DNA from: Cytophagales bacterium
GTDB taxonomy: Bacteria; Bacteroidota; Bacteroidia; Cytophagales; Spirosomataceae
Direction: 5' to 3'
DNA: 64,000 bases
Assembly: GCA_013298025.1 (NCBI GenBank)
Contig: JAAFJE010000004.1
Coordinates: 1 to 64,000 of the forward strand
The notes beneath the pieces were generated by a model. That model saw nothing but the letters and a program-made list of their open reading frames with translations, made no database searches and had not been told where the DNA came from. The position numbers and the translations under genes are program-made. The first letter of the stretch is position 1. Each line of letters opens with the position of its first letter. Below are positions 40,574-44,390 of the stretch, in pieces.

Positions 40574-41383
40574 TTATACAACAGCTTGGCGTACTCGAAC
40601 GAGTTTTTCTAATAATTCTTCTAATTTATCTAAAGGCAACATATTCGCTCCGTCAGATTTGGCGATGGCAGGGTTTGGATGCGTTTCGATAAATAGCCCA
40701 TCAGCACCTACGGCAATCGCCGCTTTGGCAATGGTTTCAATCATTTTGGGCTGTCCGCCTGTAACGCCCGAAGTTTGGTTAGGTCTTTGTAAAGAGTGCG
40801 TACAGTCCATTACCACAGGCACGCCATGTGCTTGCATTTCAGGAATGTTACGATAATCAACCACCAAGTCGCCATAGCCAAAAGAATTGCCACGGTCTGT
40901 CAAAAATACTTGTGCCGAAGGGTTTTCATGCAAGATTTTTTCAACGGCAAATTTCATGGAAACGCCTGCCATGAATTGTCCTTTTTTGATATTGACCGCC
41001 TTGCCTGTACGAGCAGCAGCAGCTAACAAATCGGTTTGGCGACACAAAAACGCTGGAATTTGTAGCACGTCCACATACTTGGCAGCCATTTCTGCCTCTT
41101 GCGATTCGTGAATATCGGTAACAGTTGGCAAGTCGTAATGATGACCAATTTCTTGTAAAATTTCCAAAGCAGCGATGTCGCCGATGCCTGTAAAAGAATC
41201 TAATTTTGTACGGTTAGCCTTGCGGTACGAACCTTTGAAAATATAAGGAATACCAAATTGGTCGGTGATACCTTTGATTTTTTCAGCAATTTCAAAAGCC
41301 AAATCACGGCTTTCAATGGCACAACTTCCTGCCATGAGGAAGAAATTATTGTTTTCGGTATGTTTTAATTTGGGGATGTTCAT
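40574..41383 (-). CDS. kdsA: 3-deoxy-8-phosphooctulonate synthase
   Basis: MAGSCAIESRDLAFEIAEKIK, FKGSYRKANRTKLDSFTGIG, ETHPNPAIAKSDGANMLPL; start at MNIPKL. Confidence 0.95.
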   Translation of the reverse strand: MNIPKLKHTENNNFFLMAGSCAIESRDLAFEIAEKIKGITDQFGIPYIFKGSYRKANRTKLDSFTGIGDIAALEILQEIGHHYDLPTVTDIHESQEAEMAAKYVDVLQIPAFLCRQTDLLAAAARTGKAVNIKKGQFMAGVSMKFAVEKILHENPSAQVFLTDRGNSFGYGDLVVDYRNIPEMQAHGVPVVMDCTHSLQRPNQTSGVTGGQPKMIETIAKAAIAVGADGLFIETHPNPAIAKSDGANMLPLDKLEELLEKLVRVRQAVV

Positions 41384-41391
41384 GGTACTGA

Positions 41392-41943
41392 TTAATGACA
41401 AATTGCGTCTAAATCGCAAGTGTCTGTTTGAGAATCGTTTGAGATATAATTACGTATTTTGTTTTGTGGAATTTTTCTGGGATTGGTCGGGACTTTAAAT
41501 AAAGGAACTGATGAGTACAATATTGGAATAAACTCAGGTTTAACTTCTTCAAAATCCGCTTGAAACATCCGTTGGGCAGTACTTACGATAAAATTTGCAA
41601 ATATTTTTCCTGCTTCAATTTGGTCTGCACTATTGCCTTTATTGCCTGATTTAAGGTTGCAGATAATGACAAATAGCCTATCTTTTTTTACATAAAAAAG
41701 GATAAAATCAGCCATACTTTTTACACCAGAAATATCATTCAAGAAAGGAAGTTTATCTTTTATTTCTTGCCCATTTTTCTTGGGAAATTTATCAAACTTA
41801 TACACTAAAACATCGCCCGTTTTTTGGATTTTAGCTTTAGCACATTTGGCTTTTTTGTTATCTTCTCTGAGTTCAAATACATCTCCAGATACATTTTCCT
41901 TGTATCCAGAGAATATCATTTCTTCGATACGTTGTAGAATCAT
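41392..41943 (-). CDS. Hypothetical protein, partner of upstream AAA ATPase; possible PD-(D/E)xK-like fold
   Basis: 183 aa; MADFILFYVKKDRLFVIICNLKSGNKGNSADQIEAGKIFANFIV resembles D...(E/N)xK nuclease core; 2 nt after the ATPase stop. Confidence 0.55.
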   Translation of the reverse strand: MILQRIEEMIFSGYKENVSGDVFELREDNKKAKCAKAKIQKTGDVLVYKFDKFPKKNGQEIKDKLPFLNDISGVKSMADFILFYVKKDRLFVIICNLKSGNKGNSADQIEAGKIFANFIVSTAQRMFQADFEEVKPEFIPILYSSVPLFKVPTNPRKIPQNKIRNYISNDSQTDTCDLDAICH

Positions 41944-41945
41944 GG

Positions 41946-43364
41946 TTAATCAAAAAGGGTAAAAAAGATTTCTTCTGAGGCATTATTCAAATGATTAATT
42001 TCCTCGTCAATCGTATTTACTTCAAAACCAGTTTCAGATACTTCTATAGTATGATTTTTGTTGTTTTTGAAAAGATAAGCTCCAATTCTATGATAATCAA
42101 TTAATTGACTTTCTTTATAGCCATATTTGTCGATTAATGGTTTTGCTTTTTCTCCGCCTGATTTTAGCATGATTAAATTATTGATTTCTCGAATAATATA
42201 ATCACTGTGTGTACTAATCATCACTTTAAAGCCGTGATTGATGATTTCTCCGATGAGCCGAGCTACTTTCCGCTGGTTATCAGGGTGAAGGTTTAATTCG
42301 GGTTCATCAATAATGATAAAATCGCCTTTCTGAGCCAAATGTCTAAAGTAAAACACTAAATTAGCAAGCGACTTCACAATGGAAGCCGTTAGGTGAATGC
42401 TAAGGTTTTTTGCTTTTGATTTATGAGGGCTGTATTGTACTTCTCCTTCTTTGGACGTAGTAATTTTTCCATCTAAAAGAACCTCTTCGATTCTATCAGC
42501 TAAGAAACCATATTCACTTTTATGTCGAGATAAATTGGCTAAATCTTCGGCAATGGCTAAACTATCACGAATGGGAAGCGGATAGCGTTGAAGTTTACCA
42601 ATTAATTGATTGATATTGCCGTTTTTCGTATCTCTTACTTCTAATAATTTGTCAATAATCGTGTTTCGCTTGATAGATAATTCTTTACTAAAAATGTTGA
42701 TGGCACTTCTCTCGGCAGTATTGATATAAATGGTTTTGATGTAAAAATCAAGAATATGCTCAGTGAGTAAACCTGTGATACTCATCCCTAAGTGTTCAAG
42801 GAAAGAATTATGAAGGAAATCATCGGTATGACCATCAGTAAGAACATTGATATAAATAAACTCGTCGTTTTCTTTCTTTGAAATGTTGATGTTATTTTTT
42901 GAAGGAAAGGAAAAATAAGTGTCTTCTTGAAAAAAGATTTTTTTCCCCTTGATAAAATCTTGTAATTCTTTTGTATCAACAGCAATCTCTAGCTGAGATT
43001 TTTCAAAATTGGCTTGCTCCGCAGCAAATATATGAGGAAGTTGAGCTGGAAAGATTATTTTAATATGTTCCCAGATTATATCCAGCATTTTCTCAACAAG
43101 GGTATCAATATTTATTTTACACTCAAGAGGGTTGTTTTTCGTTTCCGCATTGAGTAGCGTTGAAATAGTATTATCAATATCAATTTTAGTGAAAAGGTTT
43201 AAAAGAGTCCTTCTATTGTCTTTTAGCGTATCAAAAAAGCCATAAACCGTATAAGCCGCATACGTTTTACCCGTGTTGTTGGGACCAGCCAAAATGATTA
43301 AATCTTTCGATAAATCCATTTCTGCTTGTTTGAGTGTACCGATATTTTTTAGCTTTAATTTCAT
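41946..43364 (-). CDS. AAA family ATPase, OLD/AAA_15-like (ABC-type fold)
   Basis: LIILAGPNNTGKTYAAYTVYG Walker A; FIIIDEPELNLHPDNQRKVARLIGEIINHGFKVMISTHSDYIIREIN. Confidence 0.88.
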   Translation of the reverse strand: MKLKLKNIGTLKQAEMDLSKDLIILAGPNNTGKTYAAYTVYGFFDTLKDNRRTLLNLFTKIDIDNTISTLLNAETKNNPLECKINIDTLVEKMLDIIWEHIKIIFPAQLPHIFAAEQANFEKSQLEIAVDTKELQDFIKGKKIFFQEDTYFSFPSKNNINISKKENDEFIYINVLTDGHTDDFLHNSFLEHLGMSITGLLTEHILDFYIKTIYINTAERSAINIFSKELSIKRNTIIDKLLEVRDTKNGNINQLIGKLQRYPLPIRDSLAIAEDLANLSRHKSEYGFLADRIEEVLLDGKITTSKEGEVQYSPHKSKAKNLSIHLTASIVKSLANLVFYFRHLAQKGDFIIIDEPELNLHPDNQRKVARLIGEIINHGFKVMISTHSDYIIREINNLIMLKSGGEKAKPLIDKYGYKESQLIDYHRIGAYLFKNNKNHTIEVSETGFEVNTIDEEINHLNNASEEIFFTLFD

Positions 43365-43373
43365 GATAGAAAG

Positions 43374-44390
43374 TTAAATATAATTCACTTCTGGACTCAA
43401 TTTTATTCCAAATTTATCCAAAACAGATTGCTGTACTTTTTCGGCTAATTTCTTTATTTCATTACCATTTCCACCGCCATAATTGACCAACACTAAGGCT
43501 TGCTTGGCGTGAACGCCAATTTGTCCATCTCTAAATCCTTTCCAACCTGCTTGCTCTATTAGCCAACCTGCTGGCACTTTTACCGTCGTTTCGTTGATAG
43601 GATAACTCGGCAACGTAGGAAAAGATTCGATTAACGTTTTGTATTGTGTAAGCGAAATTTCTGGATTTTTAAAGAAACTTCCCGAATTACCTATTTCGGC
43701 TGGGTCTGGCAATTTACTTTTACGAATGGCAATCACGGCATCGCTGATTGCTTTGATAGAAAGCTCCGTTACGTTCATTTCGGCTAAGGTTTTTTGAATA
43801 TCGCCGTAAGCCGTTTTAAAAGTGGGTACTTTATGTAAACGAAAAGTAACTGAAACAATCACATATTTTCCTTTCAAGGTGTGCTTGAAAACGCTTTCAC
43901 GATAACCAAACTGGCAATCGGCTAAAGTAAAGGTTTCAATCTCAAGCGTTTCCAGATTGAGGGCTTGCAACTCGTGAAAAATGTCTTTGATTTCTACACC
44001 ATAAGCCCCGATATTTTGCATAGGAGCAGCCCCAACCGTACCCGGAATCAGCGATAGGTTTTCGATGCCTGCGTAATGATTCTCCACACAAAACATCACG
44101 AATTGATGCCAAATTTCGCCTGCTCCAGCTTGGATAAGTACATGGTTTTCGTCTTCAAAAATCTTTTCTTTGCCTTTCAATGCAATTTTTACGACCAATC
44201 CTTCGTAGTTTTTTGTCAGTAAAAGGTTACTTCCTCCACCCAAAAAAAGCTTTTCCACGGCGTGAAAAGCGGGGTTTTGAAGTGCATTTTTTAATTCATC
44301 GACGGTACTTACTTCCACAAAGTAGCGTGCGGTGGCTTCTAATCCGAAAGTATTGTAGGGTTTTAAAGAAACATTTTCTTGAATATTCAT
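43374..44390 (-). CDS. murB: UDP-N-acetylmuramate dehydrogenase
   Basis: LGGGSNLLLTKNYEGLVVKI, IPGTVGAAPMQNIGAYGVEIKD, GNSGSFFKNP. Confidence 0.96.
   Translation of the reverse strand: MNIQENVSLKPYNTFGLEATARYFVEVSTVDELKNALQNPAFHAVEKLFLGGGSNLLLTKNYEGLVVKIALKGKEKIFEDENHVLIQAGAGEIWHQFVMFCVENHYAGIENLSLIPGTVGAAPMQNIGAYGVEIKDIFHELQALNLETLEIETFTLADCQFGYRESVFKHTLKGKYVIVSVTFRLHKVPTFKTAYGDIQKTLAEMNVTELSIKAISDAVIAIRKSKLPDPAEIGNSGSFFKNPEISLTQYKTLIESFPTLPSYPINETTVKVPAGWLIEQAGWKGFRDGQIGVHAKQALVLVNYGGGNGNEIKKLAEKVQQSVLDKFGIKLSPEVNYI

Follow-up and report, generated by a model that had tools for sequence, protein, structure and literature searches.

A chromosomal PD-T4-4-family gene pair beside kdsA, with a variable ATPase insert and an asparagine in the predicted nuclease motif

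The described systems nearest to the locus reported here are PD-T4-4 and WonAB. PD-T4-4 is a two-gene anti-phage system that was discovered by functional anti-phage selection in Escherichia coli, its founding member sitting in an ICE-like element (PMC9519451; Vassallo et al. 2022). The authors of WonAB link their system to PD-T4-4 through the similarity of the operons, with differences in the Insert 1 and Insert 2 regions of the ATPase, in a C-terminal extension and sometimes in the nuclease (PMC12137116). Both WonAB genes are needed, ATPase mutants and the WonB K71A mutant are inactive, and the system brings about growth arrest with translation inhibited and genomic DNA intact; an rRNA or tRNA target was proposed (PMC12137116). 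Neither of these papers gives the trigger of the ATPase (PMC9519451, PMC12137116).

We analysed a window of 64,000 nucleotides from a Cytophagales genome (G000; the other G numbers used below denote relatives), in which two minus-strand genes, here called A and B, lie between murB and kdsA (Table 1). The initial annotation had placed two open reading frames between these neighbors, and both an ORF check and the Pfam matches of the flanking genes bore this out; the motifs it quoted (GPNNTGKT, DEPELNLHPDNQ and STHSDYI in A, as well as ADFILFYVKKDRLFVIICNLKSGNKGNSADQ) are all found. At the level of sequence, the match of A to AAA_15 in Pfam (E=9e-27) confirms that the gene pair is real and not a chance occurrence. 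A lies upstream of B with a spacing of 2 nt, and on the same strand 9 nt separate the murB stop from the A start and 8 nt the B stop from the kdsA ATG (41383). Since a promoter scan of the locus returned promoter-like sites that were not in excess over shuffled sequences, the pair may be cotranscribed with murB and kdsA.

Table 1. Genes and sequence features of the locus, given as positions in the window
Feature	Position	Strand	Description
Gene A	43364..41946	minus	472 aa, ATG start; OLD/ABC-type ATPase, PD-T4-4_A family
Gene B	41943..41392	minus	183 aa, ATG start; predicted PD-(D/E)xK-like nuclease effector, PD-T4-4_B family
Variable insert of A, residues 43-215	42720..43238	minus	candidate sensor module; nucleotide identity between relatives close to that of codon-shuffled sequence
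Putative active site of B, D79-X16-N96-L97-K98	41650..41709	minus	D79 and K98 invariant; N96 confined to this clade
Q108 of B	41622..41620	minus	invariant in alignments
murB	43374..44390	minus	upstream neighbor of A; Pfam MurB
kdsA	40574..41383	minus	downstream neighbor of B; Pfam DAHP-synthase-type KdsA

In PADLOC, the top model for A is PD-T4-4_A (E=1.4e-104, residues 1-469) and the top model for B is PD-T4-4_B (E=5.6e-16, residues 20-147), and by these profile matches A-B is a member of the known PD-T4-4 anti-phage family. B gave zero matches in Pfam; the earlier impression that the partner fits no recognized family was overturned by PADLOC. The landmarks of A are the Walker A motif at residues 27 to 34, DEPE at 353 to 356 and the H-loop residue H386, all of which, together with R219, are invariant among 14 diverse A homologs. 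Its AF2 model (pLDDT 78, pTM 0.79) fits an ABC-type ATPase carrying inserts, with PtuA and Rad50 chains as the top Foldseek matches (best 4e-8). The proposal that A is an OLD/ABC-type ATPase therefore held in Pfam, PADLOC and Foldseek alike.

What distinguishes the A proteins of close relatives from one another is a segment flanked by Walker A and the "AERSA" motif; the parts of A to either side are 66 to 96% identical. Along the gene, nucleotide identity among relatives is high over codons 1 to 42, collapses over codons 43 to 215 or so and then recovers, the downstream recovery being gradual. Between G458 and G424, nucleotide identity is 96% at the N terminus of A, 54% in the insert (codon-shuffled baseline, 48%), 87% in the rest of A and 90% in B; at the protein level, the N terminus, insert, core, Walker B to H-loop region and C terminus are 98, 23, 87, 100 and 93% identical, and B is 92% identical. 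We compared the inserts in 21 pairs of seven genomes (six with the pair at the murB/kdsA site, plus G494), and 20/21 were at 47 to 57%, versus shuffle baselines of 45 to 48%; the single exception was G000-G003, at 87%. Fast evolution alone was judged insufficient for an insert this close to baseline beside the far higher identities of the N terminus, the rest of A and B in the G458-G424 pair. The pattern suggests a replaced or exchanged sensor module; its replacement probably occurred by recombination, with fast evolution perhaps contributing, and a mixture of the two processes is possible. In viral A pairs the insert segment changes moderately faster than the core (68 to 93% versus 90 to 99% identity). 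One Vibrio-phage pair (L078, L082) is 39% identical in the A insert versus 81% in the core, hinting that insert turnover extends beyond the kdsA site.

The homologs of B were aligned in two sets, A2 (16 rows) and A3 (17 rows), holding 28 distinct sequences altogether. D79, K98 and Q108 are invariant in 28/28, and D51 is invariant in A2, not in A3. At column 96, all six members of the window's clade have Asn and the other 22 sequences have Glu or Asp, so that the clade motif reads D-X16-N-L-K. The corresponding spacing is TDX17NXK in MspI and SDX18QXK in HinP1I. Given N96 at the second acidic position, with D and K kept and the second acid lost, B appears to be PD-(D/E)xK-like and not a canonical member, and it could be catalytically weak or altered. 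The initial annotation had described a degenerate core of this type; the kept D79 and K98 and the lost acid agree with that description, but the change is a Glu/Asp-to-Asn substitution fixed in one clade and not general decay, a reading rejected because B is under purifying selection and all six clade members share the Asn. Outside A2 and A3, the B of G510 (L032/L049, G510:C237) reads E-L-Q, the lysine itself being replaced where others have (E/D/N)-x-K.

The AF2 model of B, built from 17 sequences (pLDDT 77, pTM 0.80), is an alpha/beta domain with a PD-(D/E)xK-like layout, in which NLK ends a long strand that is followed by a long helix, and its topology fits the restriction-enzyme alpha/beta fold. 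A Foldseek search with this model found nothing at an E value of ≤0.001; its sub-threshold list holds Card1, MunI, Bse634I, VRR-NUC and Holliday-junction resolvases along with many unrelated folds; of these, Card1, restriction enzymes, VRR-NUC and resolvases are only suggestive hits (E > 0.03). When PDB sequences were searched with profiles of B, no significant link to a solved nuclease emerged either. The structure prediction and profile search suggested for B thus returned the expected layout but not a significant match, and the nuclease call for B draws mainly on its motif and family assignment and less on fold matches.

B homologs were found in 8/151 genomes of the host family, spread over four genera, and in 3/5 genomes of the genus; the named relatives are Flectobacillus sp. 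BAB-3569, a record labeled Cellulophaga sp. BC115SP and a Cytophagales MAG. The co-oriented A-B unit recurs in other genomes. The few matches in phylum- and class-wide searches indicate that the pair is rare. Homologs of A with about 25 to 34% identity lie on E. coli, Klebsiella, Enterococcus, cyanobacterial and Bernardetia plasmids, in Vibrio phages and on viral contigs, and most of the full-length A homologs examined have a B-like gene directly downstream. When plasmids and phages were searched with B by tblastn, nothing was found, B being too divergent, and the same replicons were reached with A; a single-sequence scan of viral contigs with A gave nothing useful. G000 carries a second, diverged PD-T4-4-type pair directly after gatA (C53:166033-167920; L033:8034-9921), with 36 to 39% identity to the window pair in A and 34% in B; its B has E-L-K, the canonical form.

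The order murB-A-B-kdsA is found in G000, G003, G004 and G458. In G504, murB-A extends as far as the contig end, and in G424 the pair adjoins kdsA with a left neighbor that, by eye, is a cystathionine gamma-synthase type gene; kdsA is the constant neighbor of the pair. The murB-kdsA junction is empty in G001 and G002 (2/5 genomes of the genus), and G494 has the pair at a different location, so universal synteny at murB-kdsA is out. In G494, a gene resembling part of an IS630-type transposase (by eye) lies just 3' of the pair (L029, G494:C4, 8219-8695). In G496, all that remains of B ahead of kdsA is a C-terminal piece, preceded by an IS30-type transposase-like end, again by eye (L034, G496:C486, 1-346). 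In G004, A is frameshifted after about 120 codons and B is intact (L026, G004:C48, 7171-8561), which may reflect decay or a sequencing error.

In a comparison of G000 with G003, A and B have synonymous distances of 0.43 and 0.45, whereas that of murB is about 2.3 and kdsA is saturated. With the pair so far below its flanks, it was exchanged between the two lineages after their split. Amino acid identity in the same comparison is 89% for A, 93% for B and 69% for murB. The low dN of both genes (0.060 for A, 0.035 for B; dN/dS, 0.14 and about 0.08) argues that both proteins are maintained under purifying selection. The suggestion that the pair was acquired is supported by the empty sites and by its lower divergence relative to the flanks, and it survives its named refuter, as the pair is missing from the junction in two genomes of the genus and lies elsewhere in G494.

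Taken together, the gene pair, its family, its conserved catalytic-type residues, the purifying selection on it, its acquisition at kdsA and the divergence of its insert are observed, and we favor, with a probability of roughly 0.68, a reading in which A-B is a chromosomal PD-T4-4-family anti-phage system whose ATPase, triggered via the insert, activates the nuclease B and thereby causes abortive infection. The defence reading draws on the PADLOC models matched by both components, adjacent and in order; on the recurrence of the two genes as a pair on plasmids and in phages, viral contigs and genomes; on the invariant ATPase motifs and the resemblance of the A model to PtuA and Rad50; and, for B, on the invariance of D79, K98 and Q108, the strand-helix placement of NLK in the model and the dN/dS values of 0.08 to 0.14. 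Mechanistically, A would dimerize around ATP and, we infer, use its variable insert to sense a trigger that the phage brings about. Once triggered, its ATPase cycle would switch on B, which would depend on A; B would then cleave nucleic acid, by analogy with WonB likelier tRNA or rRNA than the chromosome, and this cleavage would stop growth and abort the infection. Such a sequence from trigger to abortive infection is likely, being transferred from WonAB, a relative known here by its published description.

The asparagine of B invites another explanation, namely that B has the PD-(D/E)xK fold but is catalytically dead or no nuclease and binds nucleic acid or a phage factor, with A or another process doing the acting. 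Its occurrence at the second catalytic acid throughout the clade would fit such a protein, as would the Foldseek and PDB profile searches, which gave no significant match to an active nuclease; however, D79, K98 and Q108 are kept, selection on B is strongly purifying, and some active restriction enzymes themselves have altered motif residues, with Q for E in BtgZI and Asn variation in MspI (PMC4081073), so that we consider a dead or non-nuclease B unlikely.

Location, in turn, might point to a housekeeping or stress ATPase-nuclease unit that was co-opted into a cell-envelope operon and has no part in phage defence. The pair is co-directional with murB and kdsA across gaps of 8 to 9 nt, the Pfam-scanned neighbor proteins are of housekeeping or metabolic types, and a cell-cycle role has been reported for an archaeal OLD-family ATPase (PMC12796447). 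Patchy presence within family and genus, horizontal exchange of a cassette with a variable insert, and homologs carried by plasmids and phages all speak against this, and we regard it as very improbable. Still less probable is a simple toxin-antitoxin pair in which A neutralizes B by binding. Although a two-gene operon with a small, putatively toxic nuclease has that appearance, WonB toxicity needs WonA and its ATPase activity, which excludes simple sequestration for WonAB (PMC12137116), and the frameshifted A beside an intact B in G004 would be intolerable for an antitoxin unless a sequencing error produced the frameshift or B is silent.

Within the favored reading of A-B as an anti-phage system, we tentatively propose, at somewhat less than even odds, that PD-T4-4 loci at the kdsA site swap the A insert (residues 43 to 215) as an interchangeable module for phage recognition while keeping a conserved ATPase-nuclease chassis, that this chassis moves between species and that the nuclease of the clade uses an N-x-K site. 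A natural series of loci, mostly at one chromosomal site and differing mainly in one ATPase segment of 142 to 177 codons, lends itself directly to a swap experiment, in which phage specificity should travel with the insert if the insert is what determines it. The fixed Asn of B likewise offers a simple test of how much change the PD-(D/E)xK-like site of a defence effector can bear.

The initial annotation had likened the pair to Septu, PARIS and Gabija; the ATPase-effector layout of a defence system stood, but PADLOC places the pair in PD-T4-4, so that PD-T4-4 and WonAB are the nearest systems instead. Gabija consists of GajA, with a C-terminal Toprim domain, and the helicase GajB, and membership is out, with no Toprim match in A (472 aa) and no helicase match in B (183 aa). 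Septu (PtuAB) and retron PtuAB share the two-gene layout of ATPase and nuclease and the ATPase fold, PtuA chains being the top Foldseek matches of A; PtuB, however, is an HNH nuclease, whereas B has no HNH match. Among all PADLOC models, B matches only PD-T4-4_B and PDC-M47B, neither PtuB nor AriB, and this, with the empty Pfam result for B, also puts Septu out. PARIS has an AAA_15-type ATPase, and A matches an AriA model (E=1.7e-27), but AriB is a Toprim nuclease (PMC12409363), and without an AriB match in B membership in PARIS is likewise out. The candidate system PDC-M47 of PADLOC comes closer, its A model being the runner-up for A (E=8.1e-88) and its B model matching B weakly (E=1.9e-4), but the PD-T4-4 models outscore it for both components. 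With WonAB, whose relation to PD-T4-4 we take from its published description, the pair shares an OLD-type ABC ATPase together with a small PD-(D/E)xK-variant nuclease (PMC12137116). With PD-T4-4 itself it shares model matches in both genes, the same gene order, strand and adjacency, and the D...K...Q residues of the B homologs; it differs in the Asn that replaces Glu/Asp at the (D/E)-x-K position and in its site, a chromosomal one at kdsA as opposed to the ICE-like element that houses the founding system. Its novelty is thus in the details, chiefly the unusual active-site residue of B and a middle section of A that is wholly different between relatives.
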